From positions 1 to 46,345 of the forward strand of contig JAIYAZ010000139.1 in the NCBI GenBank assembly GCA_027488755.1: DNA of 46,345 bases, written 5' to 3'. This DNA comes from Verrucomicrobiaceae bacterium. GTDB lineage: Bacteria > Verrucomicrobiota > Verrucomicrobiia > Chthoniobacterales > JAATET01. Of the stretch, positions 4,538 to 14,293 are shown piece after piece. Both the position numbers and the translations under genes were made by a program. How positions within the stretch are numbered: the first letter of the stretch is position 1; each line of letters opens with the position of its first letter. The notes under the pieces were generated by a model that was not told the origin of the DNA, made no database searches, and worked only from the letters and a program-made list of their open reading frames with translations.

Positions 4538-5743
4538 TTACTTGAGGTATACGAGCACGGCGGCCACGAGGAAGATGTTCACGAGGGCGATTTCGAAGAA
4601 ATAGATCCAGCCGAGCTTCATGAGCTGGTCATAACGGAAGCGCGGCACGGTCCAGCGGACCCAGATGAAGAAGAAGATGAAGGCGCTGACCTTGGCGAAG
4701 AAGACGTTGATGTTGACGAAGCCCCAGAAGGCGCCGGGGAGCCAGACGAGAGTGGCGGGCAGGCTTTGCTCGAGGCCGAAGGGCAGCCAGGTGGCGGTGC
4801 CGTCGGGGATACCGGGGAAGCTCCAGCCGCCGAAGAAGAGGGTCACGATCACGCCGGAGCCGGCGATCATGGCCGCGTATTCGCCGAGGAAGAAGAGGGC
4901 GAACCCCATGGAGGAATACTCGGTGTGGTAACCGCCGACGAGCTCCTGCTCGGCTTCGGGAAGGTCGAAGGGGGTGCGGTTCGTCTCGGCGAACATGGAG
5001 ACGAGGAAGATGATGAAGGAGATGGGGAGCAGGACGCCGAGGGCGACCTTCCACCAGGCAAACTCAAGGTTGAGCCAGGGGGCGATGAGCCAGCCGTTTT
5101 GGATCTGCCAATCAACGATCTGCGTGAGATTGAGGGTGCCGCAAATGAGGAACACGGGCACGACGGAGAGGCCGAGCGCGAGTTCGTAGGAGATCATCTG
5201 CGAGCTGGACCGGATGCCGCCGAGGAAGGGGTATTTGGAGTTCGACGCCCAGCCGGCGAGCACGATGCCGTAGACGCCGAGGGAGGAGATGGCAAAGACC
5301 CAGAGCACGCCAATGTCGACGTTGGCGACGACCATGGGGACGGGCTTGCCGTCGGGGCCGGTGAGGAAGGAGCTGCCGAAGGGGATGACCGCCAGGACGA
5401 GCAGCGGGGGGATCATCGTGAGCTTCGGGGCGATGTAGTAGTAGAACTTGTTGACCGAGTTCGGGATGAAATTTTCCTTGAGGAGTAGCTTGATGGGGTC
5501 GGCGACCATCTGGCCGAGGCCCCAGAGGCTGATGTCCTTTTTGAAGCCGATGAGGGAAATCGGGGCGCCCACGCGGTTCGGGCCGATGCGGTCCTGGATG
5601 AACGCGGAGACTTTGCGCTCGGCAAAGACGGCGAGGGAAACGAGCGGGAGAATCGCGCCGAAGAGGACGAAAAACGTCTTGAGAAGCGACGTCCAGATCA
5701 GGAACGGGAGCGGTTCAAAGAGAAAGGCGATGACTTGGTCCAT
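4538..5743 (-). CDS. nuoH: NADH-quinone oxidoreductase subunit H
   Basis: Membrane subunit that forms much of the quinone-binding chamber of complex I (401 residues, eight or nine helices). Visible family signatures are AERKVSAFIQDRIGPNRVG near the N-terminus and the conserved cytoplasmic loop FAETNRTPFDLPEAEQELV followed by GYHTEYSSM. It is the first gene of the nuoHIJKLM transcript here. In most bacteria nuoG lies directly upstream in the same operon; here an opposite-strand channel gene intervenes, so nuoH must use its own promoter in the 133-bp divergent gap. Confidence 0.97.
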   Translation of the reverse strand: MDQVIAFLFEPLPFLIWTSLLKTFFVLFGAILPLVSLAVFAERKVSAFIQDRIGPNRVGAPISLIGFKKDISLWGLGQMVADPIKLLLKENFIPNSVNKFYYYIAPKLTMIPPLLVLAVIPFGSSFLTGPDGKPVPMVVANVDIGVLWVFAISSLGVYGIVLAGWASNSKYPFLGGIRSSSQMISYELALGLSVVPVFLICGTLNLTQIVDWQIQNGWLIAPWLNLEFAWWKVALGVLLPISFIIFLVSMFAETNRTPFDLPEAEQELVGGYHTEYSSMGFALFFLGEYAAMIAGSGVIVTLFFGGWSFPGIPDGTATWLPFGLEQSLPATLVWLPGAFWGFVNINVFFAKVSAFIFFFIWVRWTVPRFRYDQLMKLGWIYFFEIALVNIFLVAAVLVYLK

Positions 5744-5876
5744 GCGCAGAGAGCGCCATTTCGATAGCGGTTTTCGCCGGGGGGTGTCGAGGGGGAATCA
5801 CGCATTTTTCGACCCGGAGCAACTTTCCCTTCGCGCGCTTGACTCCGCCCGCGGACTCTGAGATTCGCCACGGTTG

Positions 5877-6965
5877 ATGCCACGCCTCACCGCCCTGTTG
5901 TTTGCCCTTGTTCTGACCGGACTTCCTACCGCGATGGCGGAACCCCTGCGCGTGGTCACGCGGGATCTGGAGCCATTTTCCTTCGACCGGGCGACGCAGC
6001 GCGTGGGCTTTGCCGCGGAGCTCTGGGACAACGTTGCCCGCGAGATCGGCGCGACCTCGAGCTGGAGCGTGGCCCCGACGGCGAAGGACGTGGTTGCCCG
6101 GGTCCAAGGCGGACAGGCCGACGTGGGCGTGGGAGCCCTGAGCATTACCGCCGAGCGCGAAAAGATCATCGATTTTTCCCAGCCGTTCTATGAGTCGGGG
6201 CTGCAGATCCTCGTCTCAAAAACAGACGGCGGCATCACGGACGTGATCTGGTCGGTGGTGCGCAGCCTGTTCACGTGGCAACTCGTGCTGGGCGTGACCG
6301 TCACGATCCTCGTCATGCTCGTGATCTCCCATCTCGTCTGGCTCTTCGAGCACCGCATCAATGACGGGATGTGGCCCCCGCATTACCTCGCCGGCATGGC
6401 GGAATCCTTTTGGTGGACGCTGAGCACGTTTCTCGTGGGTGGCGCGGACAACAAGGGCCCGATCGGCCTCGGCGGACGCATCGTGGCCACGATCTGGATG
6501 CTCGCGAGTGTGATCGCCGTCTCGCTGCTCACGGCGTCGTTGAGCGCCCTCTTGACCGTCAACTCGCTCACGAGCGACATCAATTCCCCGAACGACCTTC
6601 CCGGGCGCAAGGTTGCCACGATCGGAGGGAGCCTGGCCGAAACATGGCTGCAAAAATTCGGAGCCACGGCGGGAAAACGCATCGACGTGAAAACCTACGC
6701 GACCGTGCAGGAATGCCTCGCCGCGCTGCGCCAGGGCGAGGTCAAGGCGGTGGTCTACGACGCGCCGGTGCTGAAATACTACACCTCCAAGATGGGGCCC
6801 GATGCGTTCATGCTCATGGGCGTCCCGTTTGAGAAAAACAACTACGGTTTTGCGCTGCCGCAGGACAGCCCGCTCCGCGAGCGCATCAACCAGGCGCTGC
6901 TCACGCTCAACGAAAAGGGCATCACCGACGAGTTGCGCCGGAAGTGGTTCGGCGCAGACGAGTAG
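5877..6965 (+). CDS. Prokaryotic ionotropic glutamate receptor (ligand-gated channel)
   Basis: 362 residues with the layout of bacterial GluR0-type channels: a periplasmic amino-acid-binding domain split in two around a pore. In order there is a signal peptide (1-21, ending AMA), lobe S1 (22-115), TM1 (about 133-158), a re-entrant pore loop (about 173-195), TM2 (about 203-228) and lobe S2 (about 238-356). S1 has the family segment Thr91/Arg94 followed by IDFSQPFYESG; Arg94 is the expected ligand carboxylate contact. S2 has Asp295 (VVYDAPV), the expected ligand amine contact. TM2 carries SLLTASLSALLTV, matching the eukaryotic SYTANLAAF gate. The pore loop reads TFLVGGADNKGP rather than the K+ filter TVGYGD. 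A TTG codon just upstream (5874) is possible, but the ATG at 5877 is preferred. It is convergent with nuoG and divergent from nuoH. Ligand and ion are unknown. Confidence 0.85.
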   Translation: MPRLTALLFALVLTGLPTAMAEPLRVVTRDLEPFSFDRATQRVGFAAELWDNVAREIGATSSWSVAPTAKDVVARVQGGQADVGVGALSITAEREKIIDFSQPFYESGLQILVSKTDGGITDVIWSVVRSLFTWQLVLGVTVTILVMLVISHLVWLFEHRINDGMWPPHYLAGMAESFWWTLSTFLVGGADNKGPIGLGGRIVATIWMLASVIAVSLLTASLSALLTVNSLTSDINSPNDLPGRKVATIGGSLAETWLQKFGATAGKRIDVKTYATVQECLAALRQGEVKAVVYDAPVLKYYTSKMGPDAFMLMGVPFEKNNYGFALPQDSPLRERINQALLTLNEKGITDELRRKWFGADE

Positions 6966-7040
6966 GCTGCCCCCCTTGCGGGCACCAACGGAAAGGTGCG
7001 GCGACGGGCCAAGCCAGCTCGCCGCGGCGTTCCGATCGGG

Positions 7041-8699
7041 TTAGCGCCGGGCGGCCGCTTCGCCGAGCGCGAGTTCCACGCCGAGGTCACCGATGCCGGC
7101 GAGGGACAGGCCTTTGAGGGCGGGAATTTCCGCCGCCATGGTCTTGAAGACTTCCTCGACGGAGTAGACGCCGTTCTGGCCGCCGACGGCGACGATGAGG
7201 TCGCGGAGGATTTCCCAGTCGTCGCGGGCCTGGCCGGGGGCGGGAATGGCGCGGTTGAGACGCTGGATGCGGCCGGCAAGGTTGATCATTGAGCCGCGCT
7301 TTTCGGCGAAGCCACTGGCGGGCAGGAGCACGGAGGCACGCGGGGTGGTGCGGTTCGGCAGGATGTCGAGCGCGACGAGCGCGTCGAGGCGGGCGAGGTC
7401 GCCCTCGGCGATGCCGCACTTGGTCGCGTCCTCGCCGAGCACGAGCAGGCCGCGGATCGCCCCGCTGGCCACGCCGGTCGCGATGGAGGAGAGCTGGCCG
7501 GTGGCAAGGCCGAGGAGCTTCGCGCCGGAGGTATTGGGATTGCCGTCGTTGGCGATGAGGAATCCGTCGCCTTCCTGCGGGCGGGAGAGCACGTCAAACT
7601 GCGTGATGCCGAGCGCGGTCGCGAGCCGGCGGGCGAGGAAGAGCTCCTCGTTCGTCATGCGGGCCGAGGCGATGAGCGCGAGGCGGGCGGGCTCGATGGC
7701 CTTGAGCTGGGCGGCGGCGGCGGTGATGGCCTGCGTCCACGAGGCGGGGGTGTTGGCGACGAGCGGGGCCTTGAGGCGGGCGTCGTCGTGGAGGTATTTG
7801 AAATTCAGGCGGTGGCTGTCGGGCATCCAGCACGAGTTGACGAAGTCGTTTTCGCGCGGGGTGATGCGGTGAATGACGCCCTCGCGCGAGGAGATCACGA
7901 TGTTCGTGCCCGTGCCGCAATTCACGTCGATGGACTTGGTTTCCTTGAGGAACCAGACGCGCATCTTGAAGCGAAAGTCCTTACTGGTGAGCGCACCGAC
8001 GGGGCAGATGTCGACCGTGTTGAGCGAGTAATTGTTATCGAGGCGCTTGCCGGGGTAGACGGTGAGCGTCGTGTGGCTGCCGCGGTTCACGAAACCGAGG
8101 ACGTCGTCCTGCGCGACCTCCTTCATGAAGCGGATGCAGCGCGAGCACATGATGCAGCGCTCGTCGTCGAGGACGATGTTTTGGCCGATGTCGACGCGCT
8201 TGGGCTTTTTGACTTTTTCCTCGATGAAGCGGCTCTCGCCCTTGCCGTATTCGACGGAGAATTCCTGCAGGCGGCATTCGCCGGCCTGGTCGCAGATCGG
8301 GCAGTCGAGCGGGTGATTGATGAGGAGGAACTCCATCACGCCGTTGCGGCACTCCTCGACGAGGGCGCCCTGTGTGCGGACGCCGAGACCTTCGCTGACC
8401 TCCATGGCGCAGGAGATGGCCGGGCGCGGGCTCCAGTTCAGCACCGGCTTGCCGTCCTCGCCGAGCTCGGGTTTGCGGTCGGGGCCCATCTTCGGCATGC
8501 CAAGCTGGACGAGGCACATGCGGCAATTGCCCGGCGAGCTGAGCTTCGGGTGGTAGCAGTAGTGCGGCACGTAGTGGCCGCTCTTCATGCAGGCCTCAAT
8601 GAGGCGCGTGCCCTTGGGAAATTGCCGCCATTCGCCGTCCACCTGGACGTTGATCATCTGGACTTCGGTCGAATTCGGGGCGGTCGCGGTCGTCGTCAT
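7041..8699 (-). CDS. nuoG: NADH-quinone oxidoreductase subunit G, short form
   Basis: Peripheral-arm Fe-S subunit of complex I. The N-terminal ferredoxin domain has Cys48, 59, 62 and 97 for [2Fe-2S] N1b. His129/Cys133/136/142 fit N5, and Cys182/185/188/232 fit N4. A degenerate molybdopterin-oxidoreductase domain follows (about 255-552). The 552 residues are short against the 650-900 of many NuoG proteins, so the MopB part is reduced. The frame is open 18 codons further upstream, but ATG 8699 is chosen because homology to the ferredoxin domain starts just after it. It stands alone: no nuoE/F upstream, and nuoH separated by the channel gene. Confidence 0.95.
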   Translation of the reverse strand: MTTTATAPNSTEVQMINVQVDGEWRQFPKGTRLIEACMKSGHYVPHYCYHPKLSSPGNCRMCLVQLGMPKMGPDRKPELGEDGKPVLNWSPRPAISCAMEVSEGLGVRTQGALVEECRNGVMEFLLINHPLDCPICDQAGECRLQEFSVEYGKGESRFIEEKVKKPKRVDIGQNIVLDDERCIMCSRCIRFMKEVAQDDVLGFVNRGSHTTLTVYPGKRLDNNYSLNTVDICPVGALTSKDFRFKMRVWFLKETKSIDVNCGTGTNIVISSREGVIHRITPRENDFVNSCWMPDSHRLNFKYLHDDARLKAPLVANTPASWTQAITAAAAQLKAIEPARLALIASARMTNEELFLARRLATALGITQFDVLSRPQEGDGFLIANDGNPNTSGAKLLGLATGQLSSIATGVASGAIRGLLVLGEDATKCGIAEGDLARLDALVALDILPNRTTPRASVLLPASGFAEKRGSMINLAGRIQRLNRAIPAPGQARDDWEILRDLIVAVGGQNGVYSVEEVFKTMAAEIPALKGLSLAGIGDLGVELALGEAAARR

Positions 8700-8784
8700 C
8701 GCAAAACCACTTAGATGGGCGATTTTTTTTCGGTTGTCCACGCGCAAAAGCACCTCCCTCCCCCGCTAGCGCCATAAAATCTTC

Positions 8785-8804
8785 GTCACGAAAAGAAGCG
8801 TGAC
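8785..8804. promoter_or_regulatory. Inverted repeat upstream of the OprB-type porin
   Basis: GTCACG-N8-CGTGAC is a perfect 6-bp inverted repeat in the 151-bp divergent gap between nuoG and the porin gene, 46 bp before the chosen porin start. Its left arm continues as GTCACGAAA, the same 9-mer found in the Pho-box-like element before pstS. It could be an operator for either gene, or chance in GC-rich DNA. Confidence 0.3.
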
Positions 8805-8850
8805 CCGCGCTTCCGCGCGTTTTACTCCTGCCTCCTCGCCCGCCTCCGCC

Positions 8851-10317
8851 ATGAGCCCCACCCTGCCGCCGCCCCCCTCCCGCCCCGCCCTGCGCCGCCC
8901 CGTTGCCGTCTGGCTGGCCGTCCTCGCCGCCACCTCCCTAGCGCACGCCGGCACGGAAGCCTCCGCCCCAACGGTTGAGATTCAGGAACAAAGCACGCTC
9001 ACCGAGTGGTGGCAGGGCAAGCGCATGACCGGCGACTGGTTCGGCCTGCGGGACACGCTCGAGGACTACGGCCTTAAGTTTAACGGGAAATATTACGGCG
9101 CGTTTTTTGGCGTGATCAAAGGCGGCGACGCCAAGTCCCGCGGCTTCTGGGATCAGGGCATGGAATTCGGCGCGGAGCAAAACTTCGGCAAGCTCTTCAA
9201 CAGCGAGGCCCTCGAGGGCGTGAAGGGATTCGGCATCGTGCGCTGGCGCGACCCGCGCAGCAGCGCCGACCCGAATGAATACGCCGAGGCCAACAGCATG
9301 TTCAGCCCCACCAACTGGGCCTCCGGCACCCAGTGGCGCCTGCTCGCCGCCGGCCTGGAAATCGGCTCCGCCGGCAACCTCCCCGTGAAGGACATGATCG
9401 TCCTGCGCGGCGGCTGGATCCAACCCCAACGCGAGTTCATCGACCAGCCGCTCTCCAAGCTGTTCCTCAACAACACCGTCAACAGCGCCAAGGGCATCGG
9501 CGGCAACATCCCCTTCTCCTCCAGCTTCTCGACCTGGGGCGGCACGCTGCGCGTCAAACCCACCGAGCAAACCTACGCCAAGGGCGGCCTGTTCATGGCC
9601 TTCCCCCAGGCCACCAGCAGCAGCAACCACGGTCTCGCCATGCAGGGCTTCGCCCGCAACCCGAACCGCAACGGCCTCATGGCCATGGGCGAACTCGGCT
9701 GGACCCCGAAGCTCGGCACCGCGGCGCTCGAAGGCCGCTACGCCTTCGGCGGTTACTACTGGGGCGTCGAAAACAAATCCTACCTCGGCGCGACTTACGA
9801 CGGCCAATACGGGTTCTACGGACAGTTCGACCAGATGCTCTTCCGTGAAGCCTCGCCCGCGCCCGCCTCCGTGCAGGCCAAGGGCCCGGCCGACGGCAAG
9901 TCCACCGCCGACGCGAAGGACTTCAAGCAACCAGTCGGCCTCGAAAAACCCTCCCTCAGCAAGCAGGGCCTCTCGATGTTCAACCTCGTGACCTTCGCCC
10001 CGAAGTATAACAACCAATTCCCCTTCTACTTCCAAACCGGCCTCGTCTACCGCGGCCTCATCCCGACCCGCGACGACGACCTCACCCTCATCTCCCTCGC
10101 CTACGGCAGTTACAGTTTCTACCAGATCGAAGCCGACCAGATGGAGGGCAACCCGAACCAGCCGAACTACTCCGGCATCATCGAAGCCGGCTACCGCGTG
10201 CAAATCAACGGCTGGGCGTTCGTGCAACCCTTCTTCCAATACATCTTCCGCCCCGACGGCACCGGCATCACCCAAAACGCCGGCGTCCTCGGATTCTCCA
10301 CCGGCCTCGAGTTCTAG
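8851..10317 (+). CDS. OprB-family (carbohydrate-selective type) outer-membrane porin
   Basis: Predicted outer-membrane beta-barrel, 488 residues from ATG 8851 (the frame is open to 8800, but the signal peptide begins here). There is a signal peptide to about residue 33 (SLAHA), then the OprB-family opening MTGDWFGLRDTLEDYGL (around residues 60-76) and repeated amphipathic strands with many aromatic residues. The last residue is Phe (STGLEF), the usual barrel-assembly signal. OprB relatives import sugars in Pseudomonas, but substrate cannot be read from sequence. Its place directly before pstSCAB-phoU allows a role in phosphate-limited growth; that is inference. The 181-bp gap to pstS contains a separate Pho-box-like site, so the two are probably separate transcripts. 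Confidence 0.85.
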   Translation: MSPTLPPPPSRPALRRPVAVWLAVLAATSLAHAGTEASAPTVEIQEQSTLTEWWQGKRMTGDWFGLRDTLEDYGLKFNGKYYGAFFGVIKGGDAKSRGFWDQGMEFGAEQNFGKLFNSEALEGVKGFGIVRWRDPRSSADPNEYAEANSMFSPTNWASGTQWRLLAAGLEIGSAGNLPVKDMIVLRGGWIQPQREFIDQPLSKLFLNNTVNSAKGIGGNIPFSSSFSTWGGTLRVKPTEQTYAKGGLFMAFPQATSSSNHGLAMQGFARNPNRNGLMAMGELGWTPKLGTAALEGRYAFGGYYWGVENKSYLGATYDGQYGFYGQFDQMLFREASPAPASVQAKGPADGKSTADAKDFKQPVGLEKPSLSKQGLSMFNLVTFAPKYNNQFPFYFQTGLVYRGLIPTRDDDLTLISLAYGSYSFYQIEADQMEGNPNQPNYSGIIEAGYRVQINGWAFVQPFFQYIFRPDGTGITQNAGVLGFSTGLEF

Positions 10318-10408
10318 CCCGCCGCCAAAACAGCCCGCTTCCCCGTCCGCCCCGCAAAAACCGAAAATCCCCTCGCCCCCGGGCGCCCAACCTTGGCACG
10401 CCTTGATT

Positions 10409-10427
10409 CTTGTCACGAAATCGTCAC
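10409..10427 (+). promoter_or_regulatory. Pho-box-like direct repeat upstream of pstS
   Basis: TTGTCAC and TCGTCAC occur 11 bp apart, separated by an A-rich GAAA. This is the architecture of a PhoB-binding Pho box (two 7-bp direct repeats with 11-bp periodicity, consensus CTGTCAT/CTGTCAC). It lies about 70 bp before the pstS start. No convincing -10 hexamer was found at the expected distance, so the call rests on repeat match, spacing and target gene. Confidence 0.5.
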
Positions 10428-10498
10428 ACGTCGTTCTTTTCCGAGAGCGCCATCACGCCGCATGATGTCCGCTCCAACCCGTTAAATCCACGCTCTCC

Positions 10499-11509
10499 AT
10501 GATGAAGACCTCCCTTCTCCTCCCCCTCCTGGGCACCCTGCTCGCCCTCACCGCCCCCCACGCCTCGGCCGTCCAGCTCAGCGGCGCCGGCGCCAGCTTC
10601 CCCGCGCCCCTCTACCAGCGCTGGGCCGTGGAATTCAACAAGGTCAACCCCGACGTCCAGCTCAACTACCAGTCCGTCGGCTCCGGGGCCGGCGTGAAGC
10701 AGTTCCTCGCCGGCACCGTCGACTTCGCCGCCAGCGACGCCGCCATCAAGGACGAAGAAGCCGCCAAGGTCGCCCGCGGCGTCGTCCTCATCCCCGCCAC
10801 CGCCGGTTCCATCGTCATCGCCTACAACCTCCCCGGCGTGACCGACCTCAAGCTCTCCCGCGACACCTACGTCGGCATCTTCCTCGGCAAAATCATCGCC
10901 TGGGACGACGAAGCCATCAAGAAGGACAACCCCGGCGTCACGCTCCCGAGCCTCCCGATCAACGTCGCCTACCGCTCCGACGGCTCCGGCACCACCTACG
11001 TCTTCACCAAGCACCTCTCCGCCATCAGCCCCGAATTCGACGACGAAGTCGGCACCGATAAATCCGTCACCTGGCCCGCCGGCGCCGGCGGCAAGGGCAA
11101 CGAAGGCGTCACCGCCCTCATCAAGCAGACCCCCGGCACCGTCGGTTACGTCGAATACGGCTACGCCGCCAACAACGGCCTCGCCATGGCCTCCCTCCAA
11201 AACAAAAGCGGCAACTTCGTGAAGGCCGACGCCACCAGCGGTGCCGCCACCCTCGCCAGCGCCGAACTCCCCGCGAACCTCGTCGCCTTCCCCAGCGACC
11301 CCGCCGGCGCGCAGGACTACCCGATCGCCACCTTCACCTGGCTGCTCCTCTACGGCAAATATGACGACACCGCCAAAAAGGACGCCCTCGTCAAATTCAT
11401 CACCTGGGGCCTCGGCGACGGGCAGAAACTCGCCACCGAGCTCGGCTACATCCCGCTCCCCGAGTCCGTCGTGAAAAAAGCCCTCACCGCCCTCGAGACC
11501 GTCAAATAG
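10499..11509 (+). CDS. pstS: Phosphate ABC transporter substrate-binding protein
   Basis: Periplasmic phosphate-binding protein that hands phosphate to PstCA. It has 336 residues: a signal peptide (1-24, ending ASA), then the family opening LSGAGASFPAPLYQRW, whose Ser contacts phosphate. The second phosphate-contact region is RSDGSGTTYVFTKHL, and the C-terminal IATFTWLLLY is also typical. Two adjacent ATGs (10499 and 10502) are possible starts. It is the first gene of pstSCAB-phoU, preceded by a Pho-box-like site. Confidence 0.97.
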   Translation: MMKTSLLLPLLGTLLALTAPHASAVQLSGAGASFPAPLYQRWAVEFNKVNPDVQLNYQSVGSGAGVKQFLAGTVDFAASDAAIKDEEAAKVARGVVLIPATAGSIVIAYNLPGVTDLKLSRDTYVGIFLGKIIAWDDEAIKKDNPGVTLPSLPINVAYRSDGSGTTYVFTKHLSAISPEFDDEVGTDKSVTWPAGAGGKGNEGVTALIKQTPGTVGYVEYGYAANNGLAMASLQNKSGNFVKADATSGAATLASAELPANLVAFPSDPAGAQDYPIATFTWLLLYGKYDDTAKKDALVKFITWGLGDGQKLATELGYIPLPESVVKKALTALETVK

Positions 11510-11575
11510 CGTCCGCCTTTCCCCGCGGGAGACGCCGGTCGCCGGCGTCCCCCGCGGCCCCTCTCCGCCGCGCTC

Positions 11576-12559
11576 ATGGACACCCTGCCCAGCCCCTCGG
11601 CCCCCGCTTCCCGGCCCGGACCCGGCAGCTTCACCGCCCGGCGCCGCCCCGATCTTTTCCTCGTCCTCTGCGTCCTCGCGTCAGTCGCCACCGTCGGCAC
11701 GCTCCTCTGGATGATCCTTGAGATCACCCACCAGTCCTGGCCCGCCATCGAAAAATTCGGCCTCGCCTTCCTCACCAACGCCCGCTGGCAGCCCAACCGC
11801 GAAATCTTCGGCGTCCTGCCCTTCCTCCTCGGCACCGGCGTCACCTCCCTCATCGCCATCATTCTCGCCCTCCCGCTCGGCCTCGCCGTCGCCGTCTTCC
11901 TCAGCGAGGATTTCCTCCCCCCGCCCGTCCGCCAGTTCATCCGGTTCACCGTCGAAATGCTGGCCGCCATTCCCTCCGTCGTCTACGGCCTCTGGGGCAT
12001 CTTTGTCGTCATCCCGCTCGTCCAGGAATTCGGCCGTTGGGCCGTCGTCGCCTTCAAGGGCACCCCCGTCCTCGGCAGCCTCTTTGCCGCCCCCGCCTAC
12101 GGCAACAGCATCCTCACCGCCAGCCTCGTGCTCGCGCTCATGATCCTGCCCACCATCACCGCCATCTCCCGCTCCGCCCTCGTCGCCGTCCCCGGAACCC
12201 TCCGCGAAGGCTCCTACGCCCTCGGCGCCACCCGCTGGGAAACCATCCTCCGCGTCCTCCTCCCCACCGCCGCCCCCGGCATCATCGCCGCCACCATCCT
12301 CGCCCTCGGCCGCGCCATGGGCGAGACCATGGCCGTCGCCATGCTCATCGGCAACAGCCCCCGCTTCTCCGGCTCCCTCCTCTCCCCCGGCGGCACGCTC
12401 GCCGGCCTCCTCGCCAACCAATTCGGCGAAGCCCAGGGCCTCCAGGTCGCCTCCCTCATGTATGCCGCGCTCATCCTCATGCTGCTCACCCTCATGGTGA
12501 ACATCGCCGGGGAAGCCGTCCTGCGTTACACCCAGAAACGCACCGCCGGAATCCGCTGA
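11576..12559 (+). CDS. pstC: Phosphate ABC transporter permease PstC
   Basis: Inner-membrane permease half of the Pst importer (327 residues, six helices). The N-terminal cytoplasmic stretch of about 25 residues is Pro/Ser-rich. Family landmarks are FGVLPFLLGTGVTSLIA, MLAAIPSVVYGLWGIFV and the EAA loop LREGSYALGATRWETI that docks on PstB. It is 66 nt downstream of pstS and 6 nt before pstA, so it is co-transcribed. Confidence 0.96.
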   Translation: MDTLPSPSAPASRPGPGSFTARRRPDLFLVLCVLASVATVGTLLWMILEITHQSWPAIEKFGLAFLTNARWQPNREIFGVLPFLLGTGVTSLIAIILALPLGLAVAVFLSEDFLPPPVRQFIRFTVEMLAAIPSVVYGLWGIFVVIPLVQEFGRWAVVAFKGTPVLGSLFAAPAYGNSILTASLVLALMILPTITAISRSALVAVPGTLREGSYALGATRWETILRVLLPTAAPGIIAATILALGRAMGETMAVAMLIGNSPRFSGSLLSPGGTLAGLLANQFGEAQGLQVASLMYAALILMLLTLMVNIAGEAVLRYTQKRTAGIR

Positions 12560-12565
12560 CCCGCC

Positions 12566-13447
12566 ATGCCCGCCGCGACCACGCCCCCCGCCGCCTTTCT
12601 GGACTCGGCCCGCTCCGCCGGCACCTGCCGCCGCGCCATCATCAACCGTGTGCTCAACGTCCTCTGCGTCGGCCTCGCCCTGCTCACCTTCGTCCCCCTC
12701 GTCTCGATCCTCTTTCTCCTCCTCAAAAACGGCCTCCCCCTCTTCGGCTGGGACATCTTCACCCAACTCCCCCCCGCCGCCGGCCAGACCGGTGGCGGCT
12801 TCGGCAACGCCATCGTCGGCACCCTCCTCATGGTCGGGCTCGCCATCGCCATCGCCACCCCCTTCGGCGTCCTCGCCGCCATCTACGTCAACGAATACGC
12901 CCCCGGTTCGAAACTCGCCAACGCCGTCCGCTTCGTCGCCAAGCTCCTCACCGGCATCCCCTCCATCATCTGCGGCGTGTTCGCCTACGCCATCATCGTC
13001 CTCGCCACCAAGCAATTCTCCGCCTGGGCCGGCGGCTTCGCCCTCGCCATCCTCATCCTCCCCACCATCATCCTCACCGCCGAACAGGCCCTCCTTGGCG
13101 TGCCCAAGGCCTACCGCGAAGCCTCCTACGGCCTCGGCGCCACCAACTTCCAGACCATCTGGCGCATCGTCCTGCCCGACGCCCTCCCCGCCATCATGAC
13201 CGGCGTCATGCTCGCCGTCGCCCGCGCCGCCGGCGAGACCGCCCCGCTCATCTTCACCGCCCTCTTCAGCCAATACTGGATCCGCTCGCTCAACGAACCC
13301 ACGGCCTCCCTCTCCGTCCTCATCTTCAACTTCTCCACCCTGCCCTTCGAGCACCAGGTCAAGATGGCATGGACGGCATCCCTCGTGCTCGTCATCCTTG
13401 TCACCGGCGCAAACGTGACCGCCCAGCTCCTCTTCCGCAAAAAGTGA
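12566..13447 (+). CDS. pstA: Phosphate ABC transporter permease PstA
   Basis: Second inner-membrane permease of the Pst importer (293 residues, six helices). Seen are GGFGNAIVGTLLMVGLA, LTGIPSIICGVFAY and the EAA coupling loop YREASYGLGATNFQTIW. The later GETAPLIFTALFSQYW segment is typical of PstA rather than PstC. It is followed after 6 nt by pstB. Confidence 0.96.
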   Translation: MPAATTPPAAFLDSARSAGTCRRAIINRVLNVLCVGLALLTFVPLVSILFLLLKNGLPLFGWDIFTQLPPAAGQTGGGFGNAIVGTLLMVGLAIAIATPFGVLAAIYVNEYAPGSKLANAVRFVAKLLTGIPSIICGVFAYAIIVLATKQFSAWAGGFALAILILPTIILTAEQALLGVPKAYREASYGLGATNFQTIWRIVLPDALPAIMTGVMLAVARAAGETAPLIFTALFSQYWIRSLNEPTASLSVLIFNFSTLPFEHQVKMAWTASLVLVILVTGANVTAQLLFRKK

Positions 13448-13453
13448 ACGCTT

Positions 13454-14293
13454 ATGTCCTCGACCATGGAGCCGATTGACCCCACCTCCGCCGCCCCCGC
13501 CAGCGCCGCGTCCGCCGCCGACGCCGACGAAGCCCTCCGCCGGCGCTTCATCGAGGTGAAAAACTTCCACTTCTTCTACGGCAAGAAGCAGGCCCTCTTT
13601 GAGATCAACCTCGCCATCCCCCGGCGCGAAGTCACCGCCTTCATCGGACCCTCCGGCTGCGGCAAATCCACCCTCCTCCGCAACTTCAACCGCATGAACG
13701 ACCTCATCGAGGGCGTGCGGCACGAGGGCGACATCACCATCGGCGGCAGCAGCATCTACGACCCCTCCGTCGAAATCATCGCCCTGCGCCGCAGCATCGG
13801 CATGGTCTTTCAAAAATCGAACCCCTTCCCGAAGTCGATCTACGAAAACGTCGTCTACAGCCTCCGCATCGCCGGCCAGAACAGCCGCAAACTCCTCGAC
13901 GAAACCGTCGAACGCAGCCTGCGCGGCGCCGCCCTCTGGGACGAAGTGAAGGACCGCCTCCACGACAGCGCCCTCAGCCTCTCCGGCGGCCAGATGCAGC
14001 GCCTCTGCATCGCCCGCGCCATCGCCAACCGCCCCGAAGTCCTGCTCATGGACGAGCCCTGCTCCGCCCTCGACCCCATCGCCACCGCCAAGGTCGAGGA
14101 ACTCATCCACGACCTCAAAAAGCAGTTCACCATCGTCATCGTCACCCACAACATGCAGCAGGCCACCCGCTGCTCCGACCACACCGCCTTTTTCTACCTC
14201 GGCAAACTCATCGAGTTCGACCGCACCCAGAAAATCTTCGCCAACCCCGCCCAGAAACAAACCGAGGATTACATCACCGGACGATTCGGATGA
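13454..14293 (+). CDS. pstB: Phosphate ABC transporter ATP-binding protein
   Basis: Cytoplasmic ATPase of the phosphate importer (279 residues). The Walker A motif GPSGCGKS is at 65-72, the signature LSGGQ at 176-180 and Walker B LLMDEP at 197-202, with the switch His in [10 protein letters not shown]. An Ala/Pro-rich N-terminal segment of about 30 residues precedes the domain; an internal ATG at 13466 could instead be the start. The gene order pstSCAB-phoU is the canonical one. Confidence 0.97.

Follow-up and report, generated by a model that had tools for sequence, protein, structure and literature searches.

Introduction

GluR0 from Synechocystis (slr1257; PDB: 1ii5) is a bacterial ionotropic glutamate receptor (iGluR) with an S1-M1-P-M3-S2 layout, without amino-terminal domain (ATD) and without M4, and the accessible part of one report describes it as a K+ channel that takes part in volume control when KCl is high (PMC13099474). 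NpGluR0 from Nostoc punctiforme is represented in the PDB by its binding core only (2pyy), and AvGluR1 from the rotifer Adineta vaga is, according to the available portion of a further paper, a K+-selective iGluR that resembles the bacterial ones (PMC12226733). The survey of Ger et al. 2010, as far as its accessible text goes, covers 22 prokaryotic iGluRs, 12 with a K+ filter and 10 without, and places its Group 2 nearer to eukaryotic iGluRs (PMC2950845). An earlier note on the DNA studied here held that most bacterial members of the GluR0 type keep the K+ filter; bacterial members without it are a kind known since 2010.

The stretch analysed here (the window, 46,345 nucleotides from a Verrucomicrobiaceae bacterium, contig JAIYAZ010000139.1) encodes a bacterial ionotropic glutamate receptor without amino-terminal domain and without M4. 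The window channel is a real and well-supported member of this known family, with an unusual filter.

Gene and protein architecture

The open reading frame of the channel (positions 5877-6965, forward strand) encodes 362 residues from an ATG start without internal stop, with a possible TTG start upstream at 5874. Its flanking genes, both on the reverse strand, were identified by Pfam as nuoH (4538-5743; NADHdh, 2e-111) and nuoG (7041-8753; Fer4_Nqo3 and Molybdopterin). After nuoG, on the other strand, positions 8800-14293 hold an OprB-type porin and an apparent pst phosphate cluster.

Pfam assigns SBP_bac_3 (1.7e-23) to residues 26-359 of the channel protein, split by Lig_chan at residues 142-243 (2.1e-16; 60.5 bits against a cut-off of 30.8). 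The latter match lies far above chance, Lig_chan exceeding its cut-off in none of 14 control genomes. An AlphaFold2 model built on a 32-sequence alignment (mean pLDDT 86.2, pTM 0.67) contains M1, the pore helix and M3. The hydrophobic N-terminal stretch MPRLTALLFALVLTGLPTAMA (residues 1-22, 5877-5942), modelled as helical at residues 3-15, is a probable signal peptide, and is followed on the forward strand by the S1 half of the ligand-binding domain (residues 22-118, 5940-6230), delimited by SBP_bac_3 and the 2pyy alignment, and by the M1 helix (residues 134-158, 6276-6350) and pore helix (residues 170-187, 6384-6437) of the model. Alignments place the filter, LVGGADNKGP, at residues 186-195 (6432-6461). 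The M3 helix (residues 198-231, 6468-6569; alignment and AlphaFold2) carries the gate SLLTASLSALLTV, which pairs with a 13-residue GluA4 segment, and leads into the S2 half of the ligand-binding domain (residues 232-359, 6570-6953), defined by Pfam, PDB alignment and AlphaFold2. In the alignments Arg94, within ITAERE (6156-6158, forward strand), occupies the alpha-carboxylate ligand position and Asp295, within VVYDAPV (6759-6761, forward strand), the alpha-amino position; both are invariant across the 32 sequences, where the earlier note had placed them. The gate and the pore, which reads FWWTLSTFLVGGADNKGP, are likewise as it had described them: TVGYGD is absent, and the pore aligns with AMPA receptors.

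In a PDB sequence search the best match was the Nostoc glutamate receptor binding core (2pyy, 1.7e-38), which has the same Arg and Asp, followed by a tandem binding protein (6h30) and then by AMPA receptors over the whole channel. The best of these whole-channel matches, AMPA GluA4 (1.3e-29), spans S1-M1-P-M3-S2, and in its alignment the window stretch GMAESFWWTLSTFLVGGADNKGPIGLGGRIVATIWMLASVIAVSLLTASLSALLTV pairs with a 55-residue GluA4 segment. The top Foldseek match was also an AMPA receptor (8c1q, 2.2e-26), across the whole model. Structural alignment with VIA-align gave Z scores of 29.2 for 2pyy (212 residues, 2.2 Å, 40% identity), 28.1 for GluR0 (1ii5; 219 residues, 2.2 Å) and 26.2 for an NMDA receptor (9oor; 325 residues, 4.8 Å); glutamine-binding proteins reach similar scores, with the binding domain alone.

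The order of the Pfam domains, the AlphaFold2 elements and the Foldseek and VIA-align matches over most of the model all describe an S1-M1-P-M3-S2 topology. With 362 residues and no transmembrane-length helix past S2 in the model, the protein has neither the ATD nor the M4 of eukaryotic AMPA-type receptors. A plain ABC-transporter periplasmic binding protein is ruled out by the Lig_chan score, M1, the pore helix and M3, and a binding protein with accidental helices fits neither Lig_chan nor the predicted structure, in which a pore loop is present, nor the Foldseek and VIA-align matches. The central proposal of the earlier note, an iGluR-type channel lodged on the opposite strand between nuoG and nuoH, is thus upheld by the open reading frame, Pfam, the PDB search, AlphaFold2 and Foldseek/VIA-align together.

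The selectivity filter and its clade

Pore loops were compared in a set of 94 rows, comprising the window protein and 93 proteins of at least 300 residues from the collected loci (GluA4 not counted), duplicates and rows below 300 residues (L019, L036, L082, L083) having been left out before alignment. Two of the latter (L019:6001-7030 and L036) represent a channel copy of a Chthoniobacter flavus MAG that lies in three frames, through decay or assembly error. By loop the set, which is query-driven so that its class counts are not frequencies in nature, divides into 44 K+-type, 17 GGAD, 15 GCE, 11 GKS and 7 cyanobacterial QAE rows. The GKS class comes to 10 rows once L121, whose loop differs, is moved out; this is an iGluR with a loop three residues longer (QIGGAAAGGKVP).

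The GGAD class was set by its four letters. The rows nevertheless lie on one side of a branch with 100/100 support in the careful tree calculated without the filter columns, and because these columns were excluded the clade is independent of the letters that define it. GKS and QAE each occupy one side of a branch in the same tree, while GCE needs two changes there because GGAD is nested inside it; in the quick tree GCE and GGAD together form one side (SH-aLRT 97). The tree test does not reject that GKS, GCE and GGAD arose once (p 0.2). The tree is unrooted, the K+ filter being taken on general grounds as the older state. GCE loops (e.g. LISGGCENKAP) align with the QGCD-type loop of AMPA receptors. 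GluA4, added to a tree from which six long rows (L022, L045, L121, L109, L047, L021) were left out, has an end branch of 3.71, and its placement on the GCE/GGAD side, though not rejected (p 0.205), is uninformative.

All 17 GGAD rows share LVGGADNKGP at 10 of 10 residues, with synonymous codon variation at all 10. The window protein differs from GluR0 in having LVGGADNKGP instead of TVGYGD, and falls outside Group 1. Like AMPA receptors (GluA1-4), it has an acidic residue behind the filter, a TA-L-A-LTV gate and an alignment that runs through the whole channel, but it differs from them in having one more residue between the filter and the conserved Pro, as well as in lacking ATD and M4. The Q/R site of AMPA receptors is the first Gln of QQGCD; numbered from this site, the window protein has Val in place of the Gln and Asp at +4. 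For polyamine block in animal receptors, the paper that describes AvGluR1 names the acidic residue at +4 as important (PMC12226733). AvGluR1 itself, described as eukaryotic and K+-selective, stands apart from the window protein. We assign the window protein to Group 2 of Ger et al. 2010 by the definition in the available text, iGluR topology without a recognisable K+ filter, and not by loop comparison (PMC2950845). The cyanobacterial non-K+ type differs in its loop, TLATQAEEMPK, which is two residues shorter than that of the window. Cyanobacterial iGluRs with loops of this type (L091, L094, L095, L101, L102, L106, L109) form a separate non-K+ clade.

Searches of an open-access library listed no paper on members from Verrucomicrobiota or on GGAD, GGCE or GKS loops, a weak result given that subscription papers are mostly absent from it. 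As far as searched, the pore is what is new: a clade within the Verrucomicrobiota whose LVGGADNKGP is invariant, nested in a GGCE grade that resembles AMPA QGCD.

Paralogues

The window's own genome (G000) carries a second iGluR-type gene, C36:97791-98783 (L002, L124), with the K+ filter TVGYGDKTP (TMTTVGYGDKTP), and no Lig_chan gene beyond these two. Genes of the GGAD lineage occur in six of 57 genomes (G000, G001, G003, G033, G041, G047), the copy in G033 being broken and placed by lineage, its filter not read. A K+-type gene is also present in all six, and a GKS-type gene in five, the exception being the window's own genome. The GKS clade forms a third paralogue (L061, L062, L114, L116, L118, L037-L039, L044, L081; loop e.g. 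LALTGKSAYKGFPG), whose pore loop is unlike the K+ or AMPA filter and which co-occurs with K+ and GGAD types in several genomes.

A more speculative reading, which we consider doubtful, is that the Verrucomicrobiota hold a natural filter series (TVGYGD, GGCE, GGAD, GKS), in which the presence of K+-type and GGAD-type channels in single genomes could allow one cell to answer amino acids with currents of opposite sign, and in which the GGCE loop might share ancestry with the animal AMPA QGCD.

Position among the complex I genes

The congener G001 has nuoG, about 1.5 kb containing a pair of small ORFs that match no Pfam family, the channel and then nuoH, in the same orientation as the window. In G003 the gap between nuoG and nuoH is 121 bases, and the channel lies on another contig beside a RecG-type gene; in a third congener (G002, 84% complete) nuoH was not found. 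The order nuoG-channel-nuoH is accordingly kept in one of the two congeners with a readable locus. Given the two small ORFs between channel and nuoG in G001 (L059:10820-11803), insertion at the nuoG/nuoH border may have happened more than once. Across 30 nuoH loci, drawn from the 50 genomes with a match among 57 searched, 18 have nuoG directly upstream and no channel, two have the channel and 10 have no nuoG in the flank. Seen from the channel, 31 distinct GGAD/GCE loci apart from the window were compared, with flanks that mostly cover 1.5 to 6 kb on each side; a nuo gene lies in the flank of one, that of G001, and in none of the other 30.

The nearest relative of the window channel is that of G102, from a different family, with 67% identity, as compared with 60% for G003 and 56% for G001; NuoH identity among the congeners is 86-87% (87% between G000 and G001). 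A single vertically inherited insertion into nuo is rejected, since joining the two nuo-lodged copies costs 37 log units (p-AU 0.0004), as is holding the three congeneric channel copies together, which costs 39 log units (p-AU 0.0004); both topologies were picked for testing once the quick tree was known. As neither the congeneric nor the nuo-lodged copies are sisters, and channel identity is low compared with that of NuoH, the gene has changed both genome and location. Composition is not informative on a recent foreign origin (G+C 63.5%, neighbours 61-67%).

A fixed gene partner was rejected on a Pfam scan of 20 neighbours among the many in the loci, these being unrelated (amidase, GCV_T, FeoB, RecG, SAICAR synthetase, PAS, PQQ repeat, epimerase) or without a Pfam match. 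Possible partners are same-strand ORFs of 180-246 residues with no Pfam match, which lie directly downstream of the channel in several loci (L005:7110-7802, L015:2510-3202, L006:7045-7785 and L010:7096-7638).

Upstream of nuoH, on the reverse strand, lies a promoter-like element, TCGACA-N18-TATCGA (5761-5790), common to the three readable genus members. Its distance to the beginning of the nuoH match is 43-50 bases, and it is present at the channel-less G003 locus too; a loose pattern of this type is found in three of 27 other nuoH loci, with a different sequence. A consensus sigma-70 scan of the region found no site, no RNA family was found in 5500-7300, and one terminator was found between the genes against 1.8 expected. 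We read the element as a probable separate promoter for the nuoH unit, in which case the nuoG/nuoH border would tolerate insertion.

Proposed function and alternatives

From its sequence and predicted structure, we think it probable that the window protein is a stand-alone amino-acid-gated, non-K+-selective cation channel, of the Ger Group 2 type, that landed at a transcription-unit border. The hydrophobic, helical N-terminus suggests that the binding domain would be exported; four subunits would assemble around a pore, closure of the binding lobes on an amino acid would open it, and cations would then pass without K+ selectivity and depolarise the cell. Selectivity for cations is proposed because TVGYGD is absent and the loop resembles that of AMPA receptors. 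The gene, standing alone and mobile between genomes and places, would have reached the border of nuoG and the nuoH-led unit, where an insertion need not break nuo transcription, and no tie to complex I is needed.

That the pore might still select K+, as a GluR0-like channel with a degenerate signature, is suggested by the gapless alignment with K+-type paralogues, TTVGYGDKTP over LVGGADNKGP, in which one filter Gly is kept together with the K and P behind it, and by the placement of the family among K+-type members in the tree. We consider it quite unlikely, however, as TVGYGD has lost its Tyr, its second Gly and its Asp, the replacement is invariant in 17 of 17 rows, which speaks for a new filter, and the loop resembles AMPA QGCD. 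The GKS types of related genomes, with loops unlike a K+ filter, raise the further idea of a protein that is anchored in the membrane and binds or senses amino acids but no longer conducts, its pore loop retained for folding only. This is very improbable in view of the conservation within the GGAD rows, where 104 of 338 positions (residues 22-359) are invariant and the filter and M3 are the best conserved, with 10 of 11 and 17 of 34 invariant positions versus 25 of 97 in S1 and 33 of 128 in S2.

The earlier note had also proposed a place where the channel could sense or balance the ion gradient made by complex I; a functional tie of this kind might keep the gene by nuoG and nuoH for co-regulation. 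G000 and G001 do share place and orientation despite the divergence of their channels, and there may be some selection on the nuo placement. Against this, nuoG and nuoH are adjacent in G003 with the channel elsewhere, 18 of the 30 nuoH loci and 30 of the 31 other lineage loci separate channel from nuo, the two copies lodged in nuo do not group as sisters, and the channel is read from the strand opposite to nuo. Neither synteny nor tree gives the channel a conserved place in the nuo cluster; a functional tie is most unlikely, and the placement looks like a chance insertion. What stands of the proposal is a ligand-gated channel of iGluR type that has no K+ filter, has a pore alignable with AMPA receptors and would differ in ion choice; the part in the complex I gradient does not.

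As for the ligand of the non-K+-selective channel that we favour, the Thr of the GST motif in S2 is kept in 13 of 17 GGAD members, but is Leu in the window copy, which thereby differs from NpGluR0, and Met, Ala and Ala in its near kin L004, L027 and L030. Since the Thr is lost in the window protein and these three relatives, the ligand may be an amino acid other than glutamate. By analogy with GluR0 in Synechocystis, a role in an ion or volume response is possible.

How neuronal glutamate receptors came by their non-selective filter, starting from a pore like that of K+ channels, is an open question, on which the position among the complex I genes has no bearing. The odd filter, shared by an entire bacterial lineage, might help to show how filters change: a lineage with stable and strictly conserved non-K+ filters and K+-type relatives offers compact two-helix proteins of about 360 residues for filter swaps.
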